This document shows positions 2,783 to 30,810 of a DNA stretch of 34,081 nt, one piece after another; positions within the stretch are counted from its first letter, which is position 1; each line of letters starts with the position of its first letter. The DNA is from an uncultured Flavobacteriaceae bacterium. Lineage in GTDB: Bacteria; Bacteroidota; Bacteroidia; Flavobacteriales; Flavobacteriaceae. The notes under the pieces were generated by a model. That model did not search any database. It saw only the letters and a program-made list of their open reading frames with translations, and was not told the origin of the DNA. A program made the translations under genes and the position numbers. The stretch spans positions 1 to 34,081 of the forward strand of contig CALLIG010000256.1 of the NCBI GenBank assembly GCA_938009735.1, given 5' to 3'.

Positions 2783-4156
2783 ATGATAAAAATAGCATAC
2801 ATCGGAGCAGGAAGTTTACAATTCGGACCGATTATAGTTCAAGATATTTTGATGAGTACAACTTTGTGCGCAAATGGATTGGAAATTCATCTAATGGATA
2901 TTGAAAAAAGCCATTTAGACCATGTGGTAAAACATGGTGAATATGTAAATGAAAAGCTAAATCGAAAGGCGAAGATTATTGCTACTACAAATAGAGATGA
3001 GGCAATAAAAAATGCAAATTTTGTCATATGTGCTCTTGAAAAAGATCGTAATGTTTATTGGTCGCAAGATTTTCATATCCCCAGAAAATATGGATTTAAG
3101 CAAGTATACGGGGAGAATGGGGGAGTAGGTTCACTTTTTCACGCCTTACGAAATATAAAGGTGATTATGGATTTAGCTAGGACAATGGAAAAATTATGTC
3201 CGGATGCTATGTTGTTGAATTTCTCAAATCCAGAACATAAAATATGTGAAGCGGTAACACGCTTGACATCCATTAAAACGGTCGGTTTATGTCATGGCGT
3301 CTTTATGGGAAGAGAACAATTATCTGAATTACTAGATGTTCCTTTAACTGATTTGCAAACCAAGGCTTGTGGTATCAATCATTTTACTTGGTTTCAAGAA
3401 ATTATTCAAAAATCAACAGGAGAAGATCTTTATCCGAAATTACGTGAGATAGAACAAAAAGGGGACTGGTTGGCCAAATGGCATGAATTAGCTTTGGGTA
3501 GAATTCTTTTTAGACGTTTTGGCCAATGGCCGTCGCCGGCTTCCAATCATTACGGTGAATATATTCGTTGGGCTGAGGAATTTGTGATTCCGCAAGTTCA
3601 ATTTTTTTATGATCCGTATGACGGTCATCCTTGGGAAAACAATCAAGTTCCTGAAGGAGTGTATACCGTTGACCGTGTTGATTATGAGCGGGAATGGACC
3701 AAAGATTGGAGTAAAAAATTATTACCAGTTGGAAGCACCGAAGAAATACAATTAGAAAATGAAGACGGAAGCTTTAAGAGCTCTGGGGAGATAGCCACAC
3801 AAATTATGGAATCTGTAGTAAGCAATGAAAAACAATGGCTTGAGGCGGTGAATGTTCCGAATAAAGGGGCAATTCCGAATTTACCTGATGATTTGGTTGT
3901 GGAACTTCCTGCGTATTGTGATGCATCAGGTATTCAACCAGTAACTATGGAGCCTATTCCCGAAGGCATTGCCGCAACCATTCGTTTGCATGCTAGTATT
4001 CATCAATTATTGGTAGAAGCATATGATGAGCAATCGAAAGATAAACTGCTGCAGGCCATCTTAATAGAGCCAACAGTAAACTCGTATCGCAACGCTGTTG
4101 ATATGTGTCACGAAATGATGTCACTTCAAAAAGAGGTGCTTCCTCCACTAAACTAA
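2783..4156 (+). CDS. Glycoside hydrolase family 4, NAD- and metal-dependent alpha-glycosidase
   Basis: 457 residues, normal for GH4. These cytoplasmic enzymes oxidise the sugar at C3 with bound NAD+ and eliminate the aglycone. Visible: the Rossmann motif at 6-11 (YIGAGS) with the acidic residue of MDI (39), NFSNPE at 146-151, and the metal ligands Cys170 (in CHGV, 170-173) and His200 (in GINHF, 197-201). The CHGx form, as opposed to the variants of 6-phospho-glycosidases, points to a non-phosphorylated substrate, which fits the neighbouring symporter rather than a PTS. The symporter ATG follows the stop directly, so the genes are co-translated. The substrate is unknown; an alpha-galactosaminide or alpha-galactoside is suggested by the third gene. 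It sits opposite an AraC regulator. Confidence 0.9.
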   Translation: MIKIAYIGAGSLQFGPIIVQDILMSTTLCANGLEIHLMDIEKSHLDHVVKHGEYVNEKLNRKAKIIATTNRDEAIKNANFVICALEKDRNVYWSQDFHIPRKYGFKQVYGENGGVGSLFHALRNIKVIMDLARTMEKLCPDAMLLNFSNPEHKICEAVTRLTSIKTVGLCHGVFMGREQLSELLDVPLTDLQTKACGINHFTWFQEIIQKSTGEDLYPKLREIEQKGDWLAKWHELALGRILFRRFGQWPSPASNHYGEYIRWAEEFVIPQVQFFYDPYDGHPWENNQVPEGVYTVDRVDYEREWTKDWSKKLLPVGSTEEIQLENEDGSFKSSGEIATQIMESVVSNEKQWLEAVNVPNKGAIPNLPDDLVVELPAYCDASGIQPVTMEPIPEGIAATIRLHASIHQLLVEAYDEQSKDKLLQAILIEPTVNSYRNAVDMCHEMMSLQKEVLPPLN

Positions 4157-5986
4157 ATGCAGCTATTCCTTCAACTTCAAAATAATATATCTACAGGACT
4201 CGAATTCCTAGACTGGGCGGTCATAATCGGCTATATGCTGCTGTCAATTGGCATTGCTTTTTTTGTGGTAAAACAAAAGTCAAAGAATATCACCGATTTT
4301 TTCATTGCTGGGCGCAATTTACCTTGGTGGCTTTTGGGTACTTCGATAGCTGCCACCTGGTTTGCAACAGATGCTCCTTTAGCTGTTACCGCTTTGGTAA
4401 GAAGCAAAGGAATTTACGGCAACTGGCTATGGTGGTATTTGGGAGCAGGTATTATGATGATGGTTTTTTTCTATGCCAAATATTGGCGTAGAGCTGAGAT
4501 ATTGACTGATGCAGAAATGATTGAACTGCGGTATAGTGGTAAATCAGCGTCAGTACTTCGGGGGTTTACAGCTGCTTTCTTCGGAATTTTTAAAAACTGT
4601 ATTTCCATGGGATGGGTGATTCTAGCCATGCTTAAGTTTTCTAATATCATGCTGGGCTGGAGCGCTGAATTCGCTTTGGGAATAACCTTAACTTTTGCAC
4701 TAGTACACACCCTTACTTCAGGAATTAAAGGTGTAGTTATACTTGATATGCTTCATTTTTCGGCTGGAACCATAAGTACGATAATACTCGCAGTTTTAGT
4801 CATGATTGAAATTGGAGGACCAACAGAATTGGCGACACAGATTGCGGCAAGAGCAGACGCACCAGCAGGTGTATTAGATATGCTTCCTGATTTATCACAT
4901 ATAGGGTTAACCGAAATGATAGCCTTTGTATGCCTTATTGGGGTCTTGTGGCTCGGGCAGGCTCAAGGTGATGGCTACATTGTGCAACGCTTATTCTCAG
5001 CTAAAAATGAAAAGCACGCTATTAAAGCATCGCTATGGTTTGCTGTTGCCGGAGTGGTGATTTTGACCTGGCCATGGATTGTAGTAGGTCTGGGTTCAAT
5101 TGTGATTTTGCCCATTTCAGAAGCAACTCCAGCTTTATTAGCCGATCCTGAGTTAGCGTATCCAATGATGATAAATGCGGTGCTGCCAGCAGGTTTAAAA
5201 GGACTTTTGGTTGCAGCTTTTATGGCAGCCTTCATGAGTACGGTCGACACACATTTATGTTGGGGTGGTTCGTATATGGTGAATGATATTTACAAACGCT
5301 TTATTAATACTAAAGGCAATGATGGTCATTACCTATTTGTTTCTAGAGTTAGTATTGTTTTATTATTACTATTATCGGCAGCTGCAGCTTGGCAGATGGA
5401 CAGTATTGCTGGCGCATGGATTTACATAATCGAAATCATTTCTGGTATAGCTATAATTGTAATGTTGCGCTGGTTTTGGTGGCGTATTAATGCATGGTCA
5501 GAAATTACTAGTATGATATCAGCGCTGTTTTTCGCCAATGGTTTTTTGTGGATAAAATGGATGCATGACTTCGGATGGGTCAATGATACTATTTTGGCAC
5601 ACGTGAATGGCTGGTATGAAGATGATGTGGCGCTTATACGAGCAACGGTGATACTTATACTTTGCACCGTTATAAGTTTGATAGTCACTTTTGCTACTAA
5701 GCCCGTTGATAATGATAAACTGCTTTCGTTCTATAAAAAAGTACGACCGAAAGGTTGGTGGGGACCTATAGCTGCTCAAGTTCCTGAATTAGTTGATACT
5801 AGTAGTTCAAAAGATTCTTGGTTAGGTTTTGTTTTTGGTGTTATCTTTTTGAATAGTATATTGTTTAGTGTTGGACACTTGGTAATAGGAAATTATTCCA
5901 TCGCATTGGTATTGATGGTTATAGGAGGAATAACCGGTTGGCTGACATTGAAACTGGTCGACAAAGCAAAAACACAAGAAGCCTAA
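4157..5986 (+). CDS. Sodium:solute symporter (SSS family)
   Basis: 609 residues with about 14 hydrophobic segments, typical of the SSS family of sodium-coupled sugar and small-solute symporters in the inner membrane. Supporting motifs are the early ITDFFIAGRNLPWWLLGTS block and WLGQAQGDGYIVQRLFSA near residues 265-285. The start abuts the GH4 stop (TAA 4154-4156, ATG 4157) and the stop overlaps the next ATG by one base, so three genes form one translationally coupled unit. The likely cargo is the glycoside cleaved by GH4 or its sugar. Symporters do not phosphorylate, so if the product is to feed AgaI a kinase is needed, and none is encoded in the window. Confidence 0.9.
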   Translation: MQLFLQLQNNISTGLEFLDWAVIIGYMLLSIGIAFFVVKQKSKNITDFFIAGRNLPWWLLGTSIAATWFATDAPLAVTALVRSKGIYGNWLWWYLGAGIMMMVFFYAKYWRRAEILTDAEMIELRYSGKSASVLRGFTAAFFGIFKNCISMGWVILAMLKFSNIMLGWSAEFALGITLTFALVHTLTSGIKGVVILDMLHFSAGTISTIILAVLVMIEIGGPTELATQIAARADAPAGVLDMLPDLSHIGLTEMIAFVCLIGVLWLGQAQGDGYIVQRLFSAKNEKHAIKASLWFAVAGVVILTWPWIVVGLGSIVILPISEATPALLADPELAYPMMINAVLPAGLKGLLVAAFMAAFMSTVDTHLCWGGSYMVNDIYKRFINTKGNDGHYLFVSRVSIVLLLLLSAAAAWQMDSIAGAWIYIIEIISGIAIIVMLRWFWWRINAWSEITSMISALFFANGFLWIKWMHDFGWVNDTILAHVNGWYEDDVALIRATVILILCTVISLIVTFATKPVDNDKLLSFYKKVRPKGWWGPIAAQVPELVDTSSSKDSWLGFVFGVIFLNSILFSVGHLVIGNYSIALVLMVIGGITGWLTLKLVDKAKTQEA

Positions 5987-6684
5987 TGAATATCAACTAT
6001 TTTTCAACTTCCCAAACAATGAGTCGAAAGGCTGCGGATATTGTTCTTGCAGAAGTTAATCGGAATCCTGAATTATTACTTTGTGCTGCTACTGGGAATT
6101 CGCCAACAATGCTTTATCATCTATTGGCGGAAGAAAACCGAAAGCAAGAAGGATTGTTTAAAAGTACAAAAGTCATTCCTTTAGATGAATGGATTGGTTT
6201 GTCTACGTCCGAAGGTTCTTGTCACGAATACATTGATGAACATATTTTAAAACCGCTACAAATTTCAGAAGACCGTTATTTAGGTTTTAACAGGGATGCG
6301 GAAGATTTTGAAGATGAATGCGAACGCATACAAGAGCTGCTTATTCTCAAAGGTCCTATCGATGTATGTATTTTAGGACTAGGAAAAAATGGTCATTTAG
6401 GTTTTAATGAACCAGCAAATACGCTGCAATTACATTGTCACATTGCGAATTTAGCAACACAATCGCAAGAGCATAGTATGATTGGAAATAGCGGATCAAA
6501 ACCAACACAAGGACTCACCTTGGGGATGCAAGATATTCTATCAGCTAAAAAAATAATACTTCTAGTTTCTGGCAAGGAAAAGGAAGCTGCAGTAACACAA
6601 TTAATATCAGGCAACATCTCAAACGACTGCCCCGCAACTTTGCTTTGGAAACATGATAATGTGGATTGTCTTATTTTGAATTGA
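5986..6684 (+). CDS. agaI: AgaI-like galactosamine-6-phosphate deaminase/isomerase (NagB superfamily)
   Basis: 232 residues from the ATG at 5986, which overlaps the symporter stop by one base. A longer reading from 5938 would lie inside the symporter and is unlikely. The fold is NagB/6-phosphogluconolactonase: sugar-phosphate loop near 34-40 (AATGNSP), catalytic-base region PLDEWIG (Asp67) and LGLGKNGHLGFNEP (130-143) with His137 and Glu142. NagB has Asp where Asn135 stands here. That GKNGHLG-NEP form, plus CHI, HSMI and LTLGMQDIL further on, matches E. coli AgaI as I recall it, so galactosamine-6-phosphate is a better guess than glucosamine-6-phosphate. No deacetylase or kinase gene is adjacent. 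The physiological role of AgaI is itself debated in E. coli. Confidence 0.65.
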   Translation: MNINYFSTSQTMSRKAADIVLAEVNRNPELLLCAATGNSPTMLYHLLAEENRKQEGLFKSTKVIPLDEWIGLSTSEGSCHEYIDEHILKPLQISEDRYLGFNRDAEDFEDECERIQELLILKGPIDVCILGLGKNGHLGFNEPANTLQLHCHIANLATQSQEHSMIGNSGSKPTQGLTLGMQDILSAKKIILLVSGKEKEAAVTQLISGNISNDCPATLLWKHDNVDCLILN

Positions 6685-20102: not shown

Positions 20103-21179
20103 ATGAAAAAGTTCATTCTACTTTTTAATTTTACAATTTTATTTATTTTTTTTGGATGTTCAACTGATGCTCAAAATGATTTACGAGCTGCAATCGATGA
20201 AGAGGAAATTACAATTAATGATTCTAATGTAAATGATGATTCCGCGGAGGATTCTGATAATACAGATGAAACTGATGATACGGAAAGTGAAAATACTGGA
20301 GATCCACGAACAACTAATTTGCGGACCTTTATTTTTGGACATAGTCTCATTGTTCATGATCCACCTGCAATAGCAACACCAAGTAATGAAACAACAGTAC
20401 CACATTGGATGGCGGAGCTTTCAATGGCTGCTGATTATGAGTATGCGGTTTCAGGACAATACGGATTCCTACCACAGCATGCGAACTTGCCTCCAATAGC
20501 ACAATGGGGATTTGATAGGGCAGAAGGTGCTTGGGAGTCAGATACAGAAGCTTTTGGTGATGCGAATTTCAACAGTATTTTACTAACTGCTGGTAATTTT
20601 ATACAATATCAATCGGCAACTACTCCTTATGATGGCGATAATCCGAATAACGCTACTCCGGTAAGTGCAACATTAGAAATACTTGATTGGGTTGAACAAC
20701 AAGAACCAGGGACTTCAATATATATTTATGAAAATTGGCCTGATATGGCTGGATTTTTAAACAACGGAGTACCTGCTTCAGATACCGAATTTGCAAACTA
20801 TAATGATTACACATTAGGAGATTTTCATGATTGGTGGTTGGCTTATCATGAGACCGTTAAGCAAGAAAGACCTAATTTGAATATAAAAATGATTCCTGTA
20901 GGTCCAATCATTAGTAAATTGCTGACGGAAACCAATTTGTCAGAGATTCCCTTTTCGGAGTTATACGAAGATGATGCACCACACGGAAGACCTACAGTCT
21001 ACTTTTTAGCAAGTCTAGTGACTTACATGGCCATGTATGGCGAAGAGACTCCTGCTTCATATGAAGTGCCTAATACTGTTCATAGTATTGCAAGAGCAAA
21101 CTATGATGCTACCGTTACATTTATTTGGAATGAACTACAAAATTTTACTGATGCAGATGGGAACAGCTTGGTTTTTTAA
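20103..21179 (+). CDS. Exported lipoprotein, SGNH/GDSL-like hydrolase
   Basis: 358 residues. A lipoprotein signal ends at Cys19 (LFIFFGC), followed by an acidic Asp/Glu/Asn linker to ~68. The folded part begins TFIFGHSLIVH and matches the SGNH pattern in degenerate form: a GHSL block I with Ser81, a GN block near 164-165 (ILLTAGNF) and block V DxxH at 291-294 (DAPH, in EDDAPHGRPTVYFL). Spacing and order fit an esterase or deacetylase fold. The gene stands alone and converges on the degenerate OmpA gene with 16 bases between. Carbohydrate-ester or envelope targets are both possible. Its lipoprotein head resembles that of the GH16 protein in this window. Confidence 0.7.
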   Translation: MKKFILLFNFTILFIFFGCSTDAQNDLRAAIDEEEITINDSNVNDDSAEDSDNTDETDDTESENTGDPRTTNLRTFIFGHSLIVHDPPAIATPSNETTVPHWMAELSMAADYEYAVSGQYGFLPQHANLPPIAQWGFDRAEGAWESDTEAFGDANFNSILLTAGNFIQYQSATTPYDGDNPNNATPVSATLEILDWVEQQEPGTSIYIYENWPDMAGFLNNGVPASDTEFANYNDYTLGDFHDWWLAYHETVKQERPNLNIKMIPVGPIISKLLTETNLSEIPFSELYEDDAPHGRPTVYFLASLVTYMAMYGEETPASYEVPNTVHSIARANYDATVTFIWNELQNFTDADGNSLVF

Positions 21180-21195
21180 TATGCTGAGCTAAACA

Positions 21196-21963
21196 TTATT
21201 GTTTCAATTGCTCTTTTACCATCATATAAAATTCATCAAATTTCGGATGGATTTTAAGAACAATGCCTTCTTTTAAATTACCGTCTTTACCGGAAGCAGT
21301 AATTCGATCTGCAGGTATTTCAAGTCTTTGAAGTGCATTACTAATAGCTTTTGCTTGCTGTGCGGGTATATCTAAATCACCAGTCATACTTAAACCTTCA
21401 ATGGTAATTGCCATATTTGGGTTTGCAGTTAAAATTTGTCCGATCTTTTGAACCCATGGCTCTGCTTCAACACTAATCGTTGAACCAGTATCGCTTCCGA
21501 AAAGTGCACTCAAGCCCGAGGAGATTATCACCATTCCGTTCGAAACACCAATTTTAGCATTTTCACCTAAGGTTTGTTTGGCATTGGTTAATACCACAAG
21601 AGCTATAGAATCATTGCTGGCTATAGCATCGTTAATTGCCTTTAGCTGTTGTTCCTTATCGTTTAGGCTCTCCATGGCCATATTGAAGTTGCTTGAATTT
21701 TTAGTAGATACTTCAGTAAAACTAGTTAAGCTTTTCATTAAAGTTCTATTCGCATCTTGAAGTTCAGTTACTTGTGATTTATAAGATACTGATTCCGTTT
21801 GAGCTACTTTTTCTTTCTTGCGAGCATCTGTAACTTCTGAACTCACAGAATCTAGTTGCATTTTTAAAGTTGCTATCTCTGAAATTAATTCACTTTTTTT
21901 CTGAGCCTGTAATGCAGTAATACTTGAGCCGAGCAGTAAAACGAAGAGTAATTTTATTTTCAT
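21196..21963 (-). CDS. Degenerate OmpA-like periplasmic coiled-coil protein
   Basis: 255 residues. Signal peptide 1-20 (LLFVLLLGSSITALQAQ), then a long coiled coil (~22-95) and an OmpA_C-like end. It is clearly paralogous to the intact OmpA lipoprotein gene in this window: shared ESL..K..........NDAI...DS..L and LG, NGMVIIS/KGVVFVS, and the ends KFDEFYMMVKEQ and KIDQFYEMIEEG. But the peptidoglycan-binding GHTD...N..LS..RA and NRR residues are absent (it reads IEGLSMTGDLDIPAQQAKAI, and no NRR). It also lacks the lipid cysteine. So it probably does not bind peptidoglycan in the usual way. Last gene of the minus-strand run, 51 bases after the glutamate-synthase-like gene. Confidence 0.8.
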   Translation of the reverse strand: MKIKLLFVLLLGSSITALQAQKKSELISEIATLKMQLDSVSSEVTDARKKEKVAQTESVSYKSQVTELQDANRTLMKSLTSFTEVSTKNSSNFNMAMESLNDKEQQLKAINDAIASNDSIALVVLTNAKQTLGENAKIGVSNGMVIISSGLSALFGSDTGSTISVEAEPWVQKIGQILTANPNMAITIEGLSMTGDLDIPAQQAKAISNALQRLEIPADRITASGKDGNLKEGIVLKIHPKFDEFYMMVKEQLKQ

Positions 21964-22014
21964 ATAAATTAGAATTGGGGTTTAACTTTTTATAAATGCT
22001 GTAACAAAAATATA

Positions 22015-23589
22015 TTATTTAGCTGAAGAAGTGAAATTCTTGCCTCCTAAGTGCTCGCAGTCATATAGTTCTTGCATGCCATTGAAATCAACTAATGTTT
22101 TGTTATAACCATAGGTGGAACGCAAATTTCGGGTTAAATCAATGTCGTCTACGTTAACCTGAATATCATTCATACTAAATTGACAAGGGTGTTCGTATCC
22201 TGCTGCATGGGTAATTTCAATAAATTCTTTTCGAAAAGTTTTAAAATATTGAGCAAGCCTATCTGACTTTAAAGGTACATTGAGTCCGTTTTGTCTCCAT
22301 TTGCTTTGCGTTGCAATTCCTGCCGGACATTTATTTGTATGGCAAATTTGAGCCTGAATACAACCAATACTCATCATAGCTTCACGAGCAACATTAATAC
22401 AATCTGCACCCATAGCAAACGCCATTGCTGCTTTTGCCGGAAATCCTAATTTACCACTTCCTATAAAGACGATGCGATCTGTTAGATTTCTTTGTTGAAA
22501 AACTTTATACAAACTAGAAAAGCCGTAAACCCAGGGTAAGGATACATGGTCTGCAAACGATGGAGGAGCAGCTCCTGTACCACCTTCACCGCCGTCTACA
22601 GCAATGAAATCTGGCCCTTTGCCTGTTTTTTCCATAATTTCAGCTAGTTGCTCCCATTGGTCTAATTTCCCAATTGCTCCTTTGATTCCTACCGGTAAAC
22701 CAGTCGCTTCAGCAATCTCTTCTATTAATTTCATCAATTCGGTGACATTACTAAAAGCCTTGTGAGTAGCAGGGGAGAGGACATCCTTCCCAACTTCTAC
22801 ACCTCTAATTTTTGCAATTTCAGGAGTTATTTTTGCTCCAGGAAGTACTCCACCTTTTCCGGGTTTTGCACCTTGCGATAATTTGATTTCTATAGCTTTT
22901 ATACACGGATTCTCTTCCGTTAACTTTACCAGTTTTTCAATTGATAAATTACCATCCGAACTTCGCACTCCGAAATACCCTGTTCCGAAATGAAAAACGA
23001 CATCACCACCCTGCTTATGGTAGGGAGATAATCCGCCTTCGCCTGTGTTATGATAGGCATCAGCTTTTGCCACACCTATGTTCAAAGCTTTAATAGCAGC
23101 AGCAGACAAGGATCCAAAACTCATTGCAGAAACATTAATTACTGATGCTGGACGATATGGTTTTCTACGACCGTTGTATGCACCCATTATTTTAGCACAT
23201 GGAACAAAGTCTTTATGCAAATTACTTGGATGTCCTTCTGGAGTTTTATAAGCCATCATTTGGTTCTTGACAAAAATATGCTGGTGTGCATATATATCTC
23301 GATCAGTACCAAAACCTTCATAGTTATTCTCTTTTTTTGCAGATGCGTAAATCCAACCTCTCTCTATCCGATTGAAAGGAAGCTCTTCACGATTATTCGC
23401 CACAAAGTACTGCCGCATTTCTGGACCTATACTCTCTAACCAATACCGTAAATGACCCACAACTGGAAAGTTATGTGATATGGTATGTGACTTTTGTATA
23501 AAAACATCACGGAAGGCAACAAGTCCTAGAAAGCCTAAAACATAACCCCACCAAGGGACAATAGTGAAAAAGTTTAAAAATGATTCCAT
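22015..23589 (-). CDS. FMN-dependent glutamate-synthase-domain protein, membrane-anchored
   Basis: 524 residues. An N-terminal hydrophobic stretch (10-27, IVPWWGYVLGFLGLVAF) suggests a membrane anchor. The rest is the synthase (FMN-binding) domain of glutamate synthases in stand-alone form: SFGSLSAAAIKALNIG near 157-172, NTGEGGLSPYH, the KPGKGGVLPG loop, GADCINVAREAM and the three cluster cysteines Cys410, Cys416 and Cys421 (C-x5-C-x4-C, [3Fe-4S] type). The glutaminase part of GltB is missing, so it may not be a glutamate synthase as such; similar proteins are annotated GltB2-like. It follows a small membrane protein by 11 bases. Confidence 0.9.
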   Translation of the reverse strand: MESFLNFFTIVPWWGYVLGFLGLVAFRDVFIQKSHTISHNFPVVGHLRYWLESIGPEMRQYFVANNREELPFNRIERGWIYASAKKENNYEGFGTDRDIYAHQHIFVKNQMMAYKTPEGHPSNLHKDFVPCAKIMGAYNGRRKPYRPASVINVSAMSFGSLSAAAIKALNIGVAKADAYHNTGEGGLSPYHKQGGDVVFHFGTGYFGVRSSDGNLSIEKLVKLTEENPCIKAIEIKLSQGAKPGKGGVLPGAKITPEIAKIRGVEVGKDVLSPATHKAFSNVTELMKLIEEIAEATGLPVGIKGAIGKLDQWEQLAEIMEKTGKGPDFIAVDGGEGGTGAAPPSFADHVSLPWVYGFSSLYKVFQQRNLTDRIVFIGSGKLGFPAKAAMAFAMGADCINVAREAMMSIGCIQAQICHTNKCPAGIATQSKWRQNGLNVPLKSDRLAQYFKTFRKEFIEITHAAGYEHPCQFSMNDIQVNVDDIDLTRNLRSTYGYNKTLVDFNGMQELYDCEHLGGKNFTSSAK

Positions 23590-23600
23590 ATGTAAAAATC

Positions 23601-23918
23601 TTACTTGAATACTTTGAATAAATCAAAGATTACATAGATTGCTATTAATATTAAAACAATGTAAGCCAGTATTTTCCGAATAGGGTTTCTAAACTTTTCT
23701 TCAGATTTAGCATTGTCAATTTCTATGCTATTTTTAATACTGTTTGCTTTTTCAATATCTTCAATCCCAACAAAATAAACCCTTGAAGAAAAACTACTAT
23801 CCGCATTTGTCTTCGTAATTTCTCTAAAGGGCACTTCGTTTTTTATGAGTTCCTGTTCAAAAAATTGCGCAGGAAAAGGATAGCCCAAATCAGCAATTTG
23901 CTCGCTCAGTTTTTCCAA
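23601..23918 (-). CDS. Small DUF2007-like protein with C-terminal membrane anchor
   Basis: 105 residues. The N-terminal ~60 residues (YPFPAQFFEQELIKNEVPFREI and VYFVGIEDIEKANSI) look like the small ferredoxin-like DUF2007 type of putative signalling domain. The C-terminus is one transmembrane segment (residues ~83-100, ILAYIVLILIAIYVIF). It lies 6 bases after the M20 stop and 11 bases before the glutamate-synthase-like gene, so it belongs to that operon. The domain assignment is weak. Confidence 0.55.
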   Translation of the reverse strand: MEKLSEQIADLGYPFPAQFFEQELIKNEVPFREITKTNADSSFSSRVYFVGIEDIEKANSIKNSIEIDNAKSEEKFRNPIRKILAYIVLILIAIYVIFDLFKVFK

Positions 23919-23924
23919 TATTGT

Positions 23925-25202
23925 TTATTTACTATTCAAATAATCTAAAGTCATTTCAGTTAATGTTCTTAATCCAAGCTGCATCCCGCTGTCATCGATC
24001 AAAAAATCAGGAGTGTGATGAGGGAAAGATTCTGTGTTACCCGGAGTCATTCCACCCAAGAAAAAGAATATACCAGGAGCTTCTTTCTGATAATAAGAGA
24101 AATCTTCAGCGCCTGTAACTGCATTTTGTAATTGTACATTTTCAGCACCTGCAGTACGTTGCATGGTAGGCAACATTTGAGCTGTCAAATCGTGATCGTT
24201 AAATGTAATGTCTGTAGCCTCTTTAATTTCGCAAGTTGCAGATCCACCATATGCTTTGGCGATAGTTTCCACCATTTCAATCATACGTTTGTTCAATTTA
24301 TCTTTCATATCATAATCTAAAGTTCTTATCGTACCAATCATTTCAGCACTTTCAGGAATGATATTAAAGCGAACTCCACTATTGATTTTTCCAACCGTAA
24401 TAACTGCAGCTTCATTGGTAAGCTCAGTTTCACGACTAATAATCGTTTGTAAACCATCAATGATCTTGGCACTAATTAAAATTGGGTCTACACCAGACCA
24501 TGGTTGCGAACCATGACTTTGCTTTCCTTTTACTTTAATGGTAAAACTCTGTGCAGCAGCCATGATTCCTCCAGCTTTGTAACGAATTACGCCAACAGGA
24601 GTTTGAGAATTGATATGCAAACCGAAAATAGCATCTACTTTTGGGTTTTCCATAACCCCTTCTTTAACCATCATTAAAGCGCCACCTTCTTCACCTGGTG
24701 GTGGGCCTTCTTCTGAAGGTTGAAAAATGAACTTAACAGTTCCCTTTATTTTGTCTTTGTTTTTAGATAATACTTCTGCAACGCCCATTAATATTGCAGT
24801 ATGTGTATCGTGACCACATGCATGCATCACTCCAACTTTCTGACCTAAAAACTCTGAAGTAACAGTTGATTTGTATGGTAAATCATTACGCTCAATAACC
24901 GGTAAGGCATCAATATCTGCTCTTAAGGCTACAACTTTACCAGGTAGGTCTCCTTTTAAAAGGCCTACAACACCCGTATGTGCAACTCCAGTTTGCACTT
25001 CAATACCTAAAGATTTTAAATGTTTAGCAATTTTCTCTGCGGTTTTGAATTCACGATTTCCTAATTCAGGGTTTTGGTGAATATCTCTTCGCCAATCAAT
25101 TACTTTACCTTCAACAGCAGAATAGTCTTTTTCTAAATTTGGACCTTGTGCCATAGCGAAGTATCCGGAAAATAGCATTGCTGCTATGAGTACTTTTTTC
25201 AT
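23925..25202 (-). CDS. Secreted M20-family amidohydrolase
   Basis: 425 residues. Signal peptide 1-18 (MLFSGYFAMAQ), so periplasmic. The M20D-type (hippurate/N-acyl-amino-acid hydrolase) zinc site is visible: ALRADIDALP, MHACGHDTHTAILMG, EEGPPPGEEGGALMMV (catalytic Glu region) and GAEDFSYY near the C-terminus. The dimerisation domain lies between (VKGKQSHGSQPWSGVDPI). Such enzymes release amino acids from N-acyl or other conjugates. It lies between a secreted DsrE-like gene (16 bases upstream) and two small-gap genes, the second of them glutamate-synthase-like. Confidence 0.93.
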   Translation of the reverse strand: MKKVLIAAMLFSGYFAMAQGPNLEKDYSAVEGKVIDWRRDIHQNPELGNREFKTAEKIAKHLKSLGIEVQTGVAHTGVVGLLKGDLPGKVVALRADIDALPVIERNDLPYKSTVTSEFLGQKVGVMHACGHDTHTAILMGVAEVLSKNKDKIKGTVKFIFQPSEEGPPPGEEGGALMMVKEGVMENPKVDAIFGLHINSQTPVGVIRYKAGGIMAAAQSFTIKVKGKQSHGSQPWSGVDPILISAKIIDGLQTIISRETELTNEAAVITVGKINSGVRFNIIPESAEMIGTIRTLDYDMKDKLNKRMIEMVETIAKAYGGSATCEIKEATDITFNDHDLTAQMLPTMQRTAGAENVQLQNAVTGAEDFSYYQKEAPGIFFFLGGMTPGNTESFPHHTPDFLIDDSGMQLGLRTLTEMTLDYLNSK

Positions 25203-25218
25203 AATGAGTGTTCTTATT

Positions 25219-25761
25219 TTAAAATTTAATTAGTCTATAATCTTCGTCTTGTAATTGTATTAACGCGGTCATTGCAGAAAGTGATAATTGTACTCCTTCT
25301 ATCAAATCTTCACGAGGGTAACCTCTCGAAACAGAAGATTGTCCGCAAAAAATAATTTGTCCTCCAGCATCAATTAATGCTTTGATCAATTCTTGATTGG
25401 GGTTATCTGTACCATACTTCTTTTTGTAAGCATCATTATCAATAACATCTTTTGAAGCCTTGTTGTGAACTACCAAAGCAACTTTTAGATTTTTAGCAGG
25501 TACGCCACTTTGCGCATGCATATTAAAAAAACGAGCAGCTGTTTCTATACTCGCATTTACCCTATCATGACTATCTGGACTGTTCATAATATCAAAAACA
25601 GCTTTGTACTCTTTTTCAGGATTAACTTTAAAATCAGGATTTTCAATGGCCCAAACTTTACCATAGTCTTTAATGATGGGTCCGGTTTGCTTCTTTTGCG
25701 CAAACAAACTTGATTGAATAATAAGGATTGCTATAAGCAGAAAAAGGTATTTTATTTTCAT
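25219..25761 (-). CDS. Secreted DsrE-like protein
   Basis: 180 residues. Signal peptide 1-21 (LLIAILIIQSSLFA). The mature part has the DsrE/DsrF-like fold pattern: AARFFNMHAQSGVPAKNLKVALVVH, then LIKALIDAGGQIIFCGQSS with the single candidate active cysteine at 139, then a final helix (QLSLSAMTALIQLQDEDY). Cytosolic DsrE proteins pass sulfur; exported versions of this type are common in Bacteroidetes but have no settled role. First gene of the minus-strand run that goes on to the M20 gene, so the 97-base gap to the helicase gene holds its promoter. Confidence 0.8.
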   Translation of the reverse strand: MKIKYLFLLIAILIIQSSLFAQKKQTGPIIKDYGKVWAIENPDFKVNPEKEYKAVFDIMNSPDSHDRVNASIETAARFFNMHAQSGVPAKNLKVALVVHNKASKDVIDNDAYKKKYGTDNPNQELIKALIDAGGQIIFCGQSSVSRGYPREDLIEGVQLSLSAMTALIQLQDEDYRLIKF

Positions 25762-25858: not shown

Positions 25859-28234
25859 ATGGCTAAATTCACCATCCTAATTTATAACAATTTAAATACG
25901 CTTTTGGAGAATTTTATTGACCAGTTGAATGATGCCCAAAGGGCCCCAGTATTGCACAAAGATGGACCATTGATGGTTATTGCAGGTGCAGGATCAGGGA
26001 AGACTCGTGTACTTACTTTTCGTATTGCCCATTTGATGGAACAGGGCGTTGATGCTTTTAATATATTAGCATTGACTTTTACCAATAAAGCAGCACGCGA
26101 AATGAAAAAGCGTATTGCTGATATTGCGGGAGCTGCAGAAACTAAGAATTTATGGATGGGTACTTTCCACTCCGTTTTTGCTAAGCTGCTACGTTATGAT
26201 GGTGATAAATTAGGCTACCCAAGTAATTTCACAATTTATGATACCCAAGACTCGCAACGACTCATAGCTTCTATCATTAAAGAAATGGGTCTTGATAAAG
26301 ACATTTATAAATACAAACAAGTTCAGAACCGTATATCATCTTATAAGAATAGTTTGATTACCGTTAAGGCGTATTTGAATAATCCTGAGTTAGTAGAAGC
26401 GGATGCAATGGCTAAACGACCACGTATGGGAGATATTTACCATAACTATGTGGAGCGTTGTTTTAAAGCGGGTGCTATGGATTTTGATGATCTATTACTC
26501 CGCACCAATGAGCTTTTAAATCGTTTTCCAGAAGTTTTAGCAAAGTACCAAGAGCGTTTCAAATATATATTGGTTGATGAGTACCAAGATACCAACCACT
26601 CACAATATCTTATAGTCAAGGCCTTATCCGACAAGTATGAAAATATTTGTGTAGTAGGTGATGATGCCCAAAGTATATATTCTTTCCGTGGAGCGAACAT
26701 TAGTAATATTCTAAACTTTCAAAAAGATTATGATAATGTTGGTATGTACCGTTTGGAGCAAAACTATCGTTCCACAAAAAACATAGTAAATGCTGCAAAC
26801 TCCATTATTGCCAATAACACAGAGCAATTAGAGAAAGTAGTTTGGACATCTAACGATGACGGACCACCCATAATAATTCATCGCAGCCCTACGGATGCTG
26901 AAGAAGGGCGCTATGTTGCAAATTCTATTTGGGAAAACCGAATGCAACATCAAATGTCAAATGGCAATTTTGCTATTTTGTACCGAACCAATTCGCAATC
27001 AAGGGCGATGGAAGACGCACTTCGTAAACGTGATATTCCGTATCGTATTTATGGAGGATTATCTTTTTATCAAAGAAAGGAGATTAAAGATGTACTTTCT
27101 TATTTGCGCTTAGTCATCAATCAAAAAGATGAAGAGGCATTAAAACGTATTATTAATTTCCCGGCAAGGGGAATTGGAAATACTACTATCGATAAACTTG
27201 TAGTTGCTGCGAATCACTACGGGAGATCGATTTTTGAAGTCATTGAAAATATTGACAAGATTGATTTAAAAATCAATGCGGGTACCAAGCGAAAGCTGCA
27301 AGATTTTGTGACCATGATCAAAAGTTTTCGGATCATGAGTGATGGCACCGATGCTTTTACACTTGCTGAACATGTTTCAAAGAAGACCGGTATTCTTTTA
27401 GAGTTTAAAAAAGATGGTACGCCAGAAGGTATTGCCAAGATGGAAAATATCGAAGAGCTTTTAAACGGAATCAAAGATTTCGTAGAAGGTCAAAAAGAAT
27501 TGGATGGCGCTTCAGGTAATATCTCAGAATTTTTAGAAGATGTAGCACTAGCAACAGATTTAGATAAAGATACAGGCGATGATGACCGAGTTGCCTTAAT
27601 GACTATTCACTTAGCGAAAGGCCTTGAATTTCCATATGTTTATGTCGTTGGAATGGAAGAAGATCTTTTCCCTTCAGGCATGAGTATGAATACCAGAAGT
27701 GAACTAGAAGAGGAGCGAAGGTTGTTTTATGTAGCGCTGACTAGAGCCGAACAACAAGCATATTTAACCTATACTCAAAACCGATATCGCTGGGGTAAAT
27801 TAATTGATGCAGAACCAAGTCGATTTTTAGAAGAGATTGATGAGAAGTATGTGGAGAATTTAACTCCGATTGATACCGCGGCCTATCGCTATAAGCCACT
27901 TATTGATACTGATATTTTTGGTGAAGTAGATAAAAGCACGCTGAGACAAGTGAAACCAACAAGAGGCACACCTCCTTTGGTTGGTAAGCCTAATGAGAAT
28001 CAATTACGAAAACTTCGAAAACTAAAACCAGAAATAGCATCTCCGGTAGGTAATACGAATGTTATTGACCCTAATCTTGCTGTTGGGGTATTAGTTAATC
28101 ATACTCGTTTTGGTAGGGGCAAGGTGATTAATATTGAAGGAGTGGGTAATGATAAAAAAGCTGAAATTTTGTTTGATAAAGGTGATATTAAAAAGTTGTT
28201 ATTACGTTTTGCGAAACTCGAAGTTTTATCATAA
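25859..28234 (+). CDS. uvrD: UvrD/PcrA/Rep-type 3'-5' DNA helicase
   Basis: 791 residues, superfamily 1A. Motifs in order: Walker A GAGSGKT (43-49), LTFTNKAAREMKKRI, GTFHSVFAKLLR, LVDEYQDTNHSQY (Walker B), VVGDDAQSIYSFRGA, LEQNYRST, MTIHLAKGLEFPYVYVVGME and the ALTRAEQQAYLTY end. The C-terminal tail (HTRFGRGKVINIEG...LLLRFAKL) is the Tudor-like PcrA/UvrD domain that contacts RNA polymerase. The reading frame starts ATG at 25859; homologues usually begin near NFIDQLNDAQRAPV, so the TTG at 25904 is a possible true start. Role: repair and removal of blocks to replication. Which of UvrD, PcrA or Rep it is called is convention. Confidence 0.92.
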   Translation: MAKFTILIYNNLNTLLENFIDQLNDAQRAPVLHKDGPLMVIAGAGSGKTRVLTFRIAHLMEQGVDAFNILALTFTNKAAREMKKRIADIAGAAETKNLWMGTFHSVFAKLLRYDGDKLGYPSNFTIYDTQDSQRLIASIIKEMGLDKDIYKYKQVQNRISSYKNSLITVKAYLNNPELVEADAMAKRPRMGDIYHNYVERCFKAGAMDFDDLLLRTNELLNRFPEVLAKYQERFKYILVDEYQDTNHSQYLIVKALSDKYENICVVGDDAQSIYSFRGANISNILNFQKDYDNVGMYRLEQNYRSTKNIVNAANSIIANNTEQLEKVVWTSNDDGPPIIIHRSPTDAEEGRYVANSIWENRMQHQMSNGNFAILYRTNSQSRAMEDALRKRDIPYRIYGGLSFYQRKEIKDVLSYLRLVINQKDEEALKRIINFPARGIGNTTIDKLVVAANHYGRSIFEVIENIDKIDLKINAGTKRKLQDFVTMIKSFRIMSDGTDAFTLAEHVSKKTGILLEFKKDGTPEGIAKMENIEELLNGIKDFVEGQKELDGASGNISEFLEDVALATDLDKDTGDDDRVALMTIHLAKGLEFPYVYVVGMEEDLFPSGMSMNTRSELEEERRLFYVALTRAEQQAYLTYTQNRYRWGKLIDAEPSRFLEEIDEKYVENLTPIDTAAYRYKPLIDTDIFGEVDKSTLRQVKPTRGTPPLVGKPNENQLRKLRKLKPEIASPVGNTNVIDPNLAVGVLVNHTRFGRGKVINIEGVGNDKKAEILFDKGDIKKLLLRFAKLEVLS

Positions 28235-29955: not shown

Positions 29956-30810
29956 TTATTCATTAATCGCAGGATCTTTCATTCCTTCTTCAATCATTTC
30001 ATAGAACTGATCAATTTTTGGAAGAACAACGATTCTAGTTCTTCTGTTTTTAGATTTTTCAGTAGATGAAACCGGCACATATTGAGCTCTTCCGGCTGCA
30101 GTCATACGTTTTGGATCTACTCCATAATCGTTTTGTAAAATACGAACTACAGCTGTAGCACGTTTTGTACTTAAATCCCAGTTGTCTAATAAAACACCAC
30201 CTGCAGTATAAGGCACATCATCGGTATGACCTTCAACCATAAATTCGAAATCTGGCTTATTATTGACTACCTGAGCAACTTTGCCTAGAACTGTTTTAGC
30301 TTTGCTCATGATGTTATAGCTACCGCTGCTAAATAATAGTTTGTCAGAGATAGATACGAAAACTACACCTTTCTCTACGCTAATTTCAATATCCTCATCA
30401 TCTAAATTACCCAAAACACCTTTTAAACTCTGAACTAAAGAAAGGTTTACAGAGTCTCTTCGTGTAATTGCGTCATTTAACTTACGAATAGTTAAATCTT
30501 TCTCTTGAAGACTTTCTAATGACTTCTCTAAGTTCTCAGCTCCTTTAGTAGTCAATGTGGTCAAATTCCCCATATTGTTAATCAACTCTTGATTATTTGC
30601 CTTTAAAAAAGAGTTTTGGTCTTCTAATGTCTGTAATCTTGAAGTAGCAGTTGCCTTTTCTTCTAAGCAGTCATTAAGTTTAACCGTTGCGGAGTTCAAT
30701 AAATCCTGTGATTCTTTAGCCTTAGCCTCTAATTCTGCATATTTCTTTTGTGATACACAAGAGGATAACAAAAATGTTGCTCCTAATACACCTAAAATGA
30801 TTTTTTTCAT
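29956..30810 (-). CDS. OmpA-family lipoprotein
   Basis: 284 residues. Lipoprotein signal with cysteine at 18 (FLLSSC), a coiled coil from about 22 to 120, then a complete OmpA_C domain: FEFMVEGHTDDVPY, WDLSTKRATAVVRIL, a GVDPKRMTAAGRAQYVP block and KSKNRRTRIVVLP. The Asp and the second Arg of these motifs bind diaminopimelate of peptidoglycan, so it likely links outer membrane and cell wall. It is the intact relative of the 21196-21963 gene. The 94-base upstream gap is AT-rich and probably holds its promoter. Confidence 0.93.
   Translation of the reverse strand: MKKIILGVLGATFLLSSCVSQKKYAELEAKAKESQDLLNSATVKLNDCLEEKATATSRLQTLEDQNSFLKANNQELINNMGNLTTLTTKGAENLEKSLESLQEKDLTIRKLNDAITRRDSVNLSLVQSLKGVLGNLDDEDIEISVEKGVVFVSISDKLLFSSGSYNIMSKAKTVLGKVAQVVNNKPDFEFMVEGHTDDVPYTAGGVLLDNWDLSTKRATAVVRILQNDYGVDPKRMTAAGRAQYVPVSSTEKSKNRRTRIVVLPKIDQFYEMIEEGMKDPAINE

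Follow-up and report, generated by a model that had tools for sequence, protein, structure and literature searches.

The window analysed here, the whole 34,081-nucleotide stretch from an uncultured marine Flavobacteriaceae bacterium, contains a run of five ORFs, all on the minus strand and separated by gaps of 16, 6, 11, and 51 bases. In the direction of transcription they code for an exported DsrE-family protein (DsrE; 180 aa, 25219..25761), an exported M20D-type amidohydrolase/carboxypeptidase (M20; 425 aa, 23925..25202), a small orphan protein with a TTG start (105 aa, 23601..23918), a glutamate-synthase-FMN-like protein (hereafter the synthase; 524 aa, 22015..23589), and an exported OmpA-C-like paralogue (255 aa, 21196..21963). 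An earlier note had described the same run; its coordinates, strand, and gap lengths were found to be exact, and this spacing is compatible with the single transcript that it proposed. Its labels were upheld in part: the DsrE, M20, and glutamate-synthase FMN assignments were supported by profile matches above the cut-offs, the OmpA match was sub-threshold, and the ORF labeled DUF2007-like had no Pfam match. Upstream of the run lies a divergent gene for a UvrD/PcrA-type helicase (25859-28234). The convergent ORF downstream (20103-21179, plus strand) codes for a 358-aa protein that is lipoprotein-like by eye; a Pfam search of this protein gave no match, and a relative at 72% was present in only two (L001, L005) of the 70 related loci described below, within flanks of at most 10 kb. 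At the other end of the window, ORFs of GH4-type glycosidase, sodium-solute symporter, and glucosamine-6-phosphate-deaminase type (named by eye) stand in a row on the plus strand (2783-6684), with an AraC-type ORF (by eye) on the opposite strand at 1832-2635.

DsrE matched PF02635 at 67.7 bits, against a Pfam cut-off of 22.7, and a signal peptide was recognized by eye. Motifs were examined in alignments of sequences from the related loci, the window included, leaving out those that covered less than 80% of the query. Of 32 aligned sequences, 31 had the cysteine of the CGQ[ST] segment and one had a gap there, and the GQ was found in all 32; the conserved cysteine of DsrE-family proteins has a catalytic role. 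No sequence relative of DsrE was found among solved structures (PDB, E ≤ 0.1). M20, for which a signal peptide was also seen by eye, matched PF01546 (131.6 bits) and PF07687 (51.8 bits) in Pfam and TIGR01891 in NCBIfam (365.9 against a cut-off of 153.75); its match to the CpsA equivalog of NCBIfam reached 412 bits and lay under the 500-bit cut-off. Relatives in the PDB were 4ewt, 1ysj, 1xmb, and 6slf, with YxeP, ILL2, and an acyl-glutamine aminoacylase among them. The metal motif, HACGHD, was present in all 58 aligned M20 sequences.

The synthase matched PF01645 at 271.9 bits (cut-off 20.4). This was its sole Pfam match in 524 aa at E ≤ 0.01, neither a class-II glutaminase nor a GltB3 domain being matched, which agrees with the earlier description of a synthase domain without a glutaminase part. 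Since it lacks that part, the enzyme would need ammonia or a separate amidotransferase. A search of solved structures aligned residues ~151-465 with the large chains of GltS, three cysteines coinciding, and the [3Fe-4S] motif C-X5-C-X4-C was found in 69 of 69 aligned sequences. Because the DsrE cysteine, HACGHD, and C-X5-C-X4-C are conserved, these three proteins look functional. One N-terminal hydrophobic/membrane segment was identified in the synthase by eye, and by the positive-inside rule, likewise applied by eye, its FMN domain should face the cytoplasm, whereas DsrE, M20, and the OmpA-like protein carry export signals, these too recognized by eye. This weakens the suggestion that the genes serve an envelope redox system.

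The match of the OmpA-like protein to PF00691 (22.1 bits) was under the cut-off of 27.2. It aligned at 26% identity with a paralogue encoded outside the run (29956..30810, minus strand), which was used for comparison; in this protein the OmpA-C segments are retained, and its N-terminus looks lipobox-like by eye. Both HTD and NRR-TR, the peptidoglycan-binding Asp and Arg segments of the OmpA family, were missing in the OmpA-like protein and in five aligned orthologues and were present in three paralogues, that at 29956-30810 included. The OmpA-like protein would be a derived paralogue, and its sequence does not suggest peptidoglycan binding.

Related loci were also scanned for the pattern TTG-N17-23-TAnnTTTG, which is the Bacteroidota -33/-7 consensus, and expected numbers were obtained from mononucleotide shuffles. 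Since an exact box occurred upstream of the OmpA-like gene in 11 of 36 loci against 0.5 expected, this gene may have its own promoter in the relatives concerned, namely Zobellia (five boxes), Arenibacter (three), and Cellulophaga (three); none was found in Maribacter. Clustered as they are in three genera, the eleven boxes do not count as independent cases; the distance between the OmpA-like gene and that of the synthase is ~2.4 kb in the Cellulophaga loci, three in number. In the window, the OmpA-like gene has a -7-like box with no matching -33. The pattern was found upstream of 0/31 DsrE, 0/57 M20, and 2/70 synthase genes (0.6 expected for the last). As a first gene needs a promoter, the lack of any hit upstream of DsrE indicates that the scan is insensitive.

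For the small ORF, a Pfam search up to E = 10, whose HMMER filters drop most weak matches, returned nothing, and it did not match the DUF2007 profile (PF09413); a genuine DUF2007 member is encoded elsewhere in the same genome (G000:C264). Its single-sequence AlphaFold model (mean pLDDT 73.5, pTM 0.45) had a helix-strand-strand-helix order, a likeness to DUF2007 in the order of elements only; the C-terminal helix is long and by eye would span the membrane. A Foldseek search of the PDB with this model returned nothing at E ≤ 0.001, and the best resemblance, to the PII-like PstA/DarA, was not significant (E 0.1, TM-score 0.38). The "DUF2007-like" label would be a fair guess at topology, the modeled protein being DUF2007/PII-like at best.

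Homologues of the small ORF were scarce. Searches of the 70 synthase-encoding loci and of the 58 relatives did not detect it (E ≤ 0.001 in both), so that its own genome was the only one among 59. A single convincing homologue, with 38% identity over nearly the full length, was found among 396 other genomes of the family (G419), and a class-wide search (395 genomes, two-row profile, overlapping sets) gave, besides the own genome, only a weak match with a stop (G982). Four matches at E 0.03-0.06 in the 59-genome search, together with G348 from the family search and G982, were dismissed as chance because they were weak and each contained at least one in-frame stop. The existence of a full-length homologue suggests that the small ORF is probably a real gene. 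In G419 the homologue is flanked by permease-type and triose-phosphate-isomerase-type ORFs (named by eye), and of the fifteen window queries none besides the small ORF matched in the surrounding 15 kb. These surroundings bear on the idea of a membrane-bound PII/DUF2007-like regulator that has been co-opted to act on the synthase-like enzyme encoded beside it. Such a role would suit the gaps of 6 and 11 bases on either side of the ORF and the slight likeness to PstA/DarA, but it is hard to reconcile with the only convincing homologue lying among unrelated-looking neighbours and with a single-sequence model that finds no match at the Foldseek threshold, and we hold it to be very unlikely.

We consider the small ORF a near-private, lineage-specific gene that was inserted between M20 and the synthase, and probably a recent arrival there. 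Signs of a mobile-element origin were looked for without success: no relative was found in plasmid or phage collections (E ≤ 0.01) nor in IMG/VR by peptide patterns, which reach close relatives only, and the DNA on either side (window 23400-24150) showed no direct repeats. M20 and the synthase are separated by a 501-codon open frame in three Psychroserpens loci (L046, L049, L050); this junction seems to accept insertions.

Conservation of the neighbourhood was studied in 70 loci chosen for encoding the synthase and scanned with fifteen window proteins in flanks of up to 10 kb; loci with short flanks were dropped from the counts (three on the M20 side, <1.5 kb; three on the OmpA side; four for DsrE, <2.2 kb). 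M20 was located upstream of the synthase within the flank in 57/67 loci, at no more than 700 bases in 51 of these 67. DsrE was present in 31/66 loci, every time beside M20, and M20 occurred without DsrE in 25/66. The OmpA-like gene followed the synthase within 300 bases in 30/67. The gene for DUF7935, part of no proposed system, served as a control; it was found downstream within the flank in 59/67 loci and at ≤700 bases in only 21/67, a distance count on which the OmpA-like gene bears, since it often sits between the synthase and DUF7935. The larger block is thus syntenic in general: retention of M20 is not exceptional, and its closeness to the synthase is. In some Aquimarina loci, L035 and L045 among them, UvrD is ~3.3 kb off and DsrE, M20, synthase, and DUF7935 remain packed. 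Two copies of M20 were observed upstream of the synthase in L041 and L036 (an uncultured Dokdonia and another flavobacterial MAG) and also in G025.

A set of 59 genomes (the own genome and 58 relatives) was examined with hand-picked orthologues; paralogues of greater distance, synthases of 44% identity for instance, were set aside. Orthologues of DsrE occurred in 18 genomes, of M20 in 27, of the synthase in 28 (two of them incomplete, G028 and the contig-end fragment G001), and of OmpA in 17. Since four of the five ORFs have orthologues in many genomes, the run exceeds chance. DsrE adjoined M20 in 18/18 genomes and the synthase adjoined OmpA in 16/16; M20 adjoined the synthase (<1 kb) in 22 of the 23 genomes with both. 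Conservation across genomes, which the note had proposed as a check, held for these pairs and not for the set, the full five-gene order being seen in no other genome examined (70 related loci, 58 relatives, 396 family genomes).

The pairwise adjacencies would also suit another explanation, according to which DsrE, M20, and the synthase form a true Flavobacteriaceae operon for the salvage of acyl-amino acids or peptides: M20 would free amino acids outside, the synthase-like enzyme would process them or their nitrogen inside, and DsrE would handle periplasmic sulfur/redox. Tight co-directional packing is kept across genera, M20-synthase gaps being 4-25 bases (stop codon included) in G018, G020, G021, G025, G030, G032, and G034, which represent several genera other than that of the window, and the near-constant adjacency of M20 and synthase and their short distances in the loci point the same way. 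The same genome set, however, contains four genomes with M20 and no synthase ortholog and five with the synthase and no M20 ortholog. In the congener G011 the two are on separate contigs, where ~39.8 kb of contig extends below M20 with an M48-type ORF (by eye) next to it, and the synthase is ~0.5 kb from a contig end; in G024, M20 and OmpA are 126 bases apart and the synthase is missing from its place between them. The frequent lack of DsrE beside M20 in the loci argues against the operon as well.

A survey of 296 genomes of the phylum, with thresholds that left out more distant paralogues (E ≤ 1e-150 for the synthase, ≤ 1e-120 for M20, ≤ 1e-10 for DsrE), detected orthologues of the synthase in eight genomes, of M20 in 86, and of DsrE in 35. 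Synthase and M20 were both present in seven and adjacent in five, all of the window's family; in the two genomes outside the family (G607, G668) they were on different contigs. The separation is clear in G607, whose contig continues for 148 kb past the synthase in the direction in which M20 would be expected; it is not certain in G668, a draft in ~360 pieces. DsrE stood beside M20 in 5/35 genomes, all in-family, and many of the others had the two on different contigs of drafts. At the threshold used, 79 of the 86 genomes with M20 lacked a synthase ortholog, again contrary to the operon, which we regard as rather unlikely. A functional link of DsrE, M20, and the synthase within the family may nevertheless exist, given the short gaps across genera, a closeness beyond that of the DUF7935 control, and the packing in Aquimarina. 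Several pairs were thus found apart, in the 59 genomes and in the phylum, and the expectation that the genes stay together in relatives was not borne out.

The 70 loci also revealed a variant of RecG. In Maribacter luteus (L008:16291-18828) and in an Allomuricauda MAG (L022:16024-18561), RecG is interrupted in frame by ~135-145 extra residues, at nearly the same position in both, between ...QRSKLW and PPHILVMTATPIPRTL. The two insertions match DUF559 (cut-off 20.6), one at 113.7 and the other at 118.5 bits, and by eye their ends are rich in Pro and Gly. Two strong RecG pieces were seen only in these two of the 70 loci, and the RecG of the window is without the insertion. It looks like a mobile in-frame domain and deserves separate study.

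The proposal that the five genes form one system was rejected: the adjacencies in the 59 genomes do not follow it, their order recurs in none of the genomes examined, and the small ORF, undetected in the 70 loci and the 58 relatives, was found once elsewhere. The observed gene content, conservation, separations, and missing motifs make it likely, in our judgement, that the run is part of a conserved flavobacterial neighbourhood with a DsrE-M20 core, into which a lineage-specific orphan was inserted, and not a five-part machine. The order of this neighbourhood would be the UvrD helicase, then DsrE, M20, synthase, and OmpA-like protein, and then DUF7935, patatin, M1 peptidase, and RecG. As to transcripts, compartments, and activities, we infer that DsrE and the exported M20 form a two-gene unit, probably co-transcribed; that M20 likely acts outside the cytoplasm, where it would cleave N-acyl-amino acids or remove C-terminal residues, as its family suggests; and that the synthase is probably tethered to the membrane on the cytoplasmic side and works there, independently, as an FMN/[3Fe-4S] oxidoreductase on amino acids. 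The boldest conjecture, that a near-private, small membrane-anchored PII/DUF2007-like protein, inserted between the exported amidohydrolase and a synthase that is membrane-tethered and glutaminase-free, regulates a family-specific acyl-amino-acid salvage operon, seems to us scarcely credible. Tight same-strand spacing can mix old neighbours with a newcomer, and therefore reading the five genes as a unit would mislead. A literature search covering titles and the starts of abstracts, with few subscription papers, found no description of the five-gene set. The DsrE-M20-synthase group is a modest lead to the role of the flavobacterial form of the synthase, since the titles and abstract starts found assign this form no function.

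Compared with known proteins, the small ORF resembles DUF2007 (PF09413) in the order of elements of its model. The OmpA-like protein, set against OmpA C-terminal domain proteins, aligns with the paralogue at 29956-30810 but lacks HTD and NRR-TR. M20 shares the profile match and HACGHD with M20D amidohydrolases (TIGR01891; YxeP, ILL2, N-alpha-acyl-glutamine aminoacylase), and differs from them in its export signal, recognized by eye. Stand-alone FMN glutamate-synthase-like proteins have been named in many bacteria: one is listed as the match of MgsC, one of the three subunits of N-methylglutamate synthase (PMC6237917), and another is a Staphylococcus aureus marker gene (PMC9502308). From mgsABC in the description of PMC6237917 the five-gene run differs in having no amidotransferase or GltB3-like gene. 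The synthase and the stand-alone PF01645 family have in common the PF01645 region, the C-X5-C-X4-C motif, and the lack of a glutaminase part, and the synthase is set apart from these members by an N-terminal part in which a hydrophobic segment was recognized by eye.
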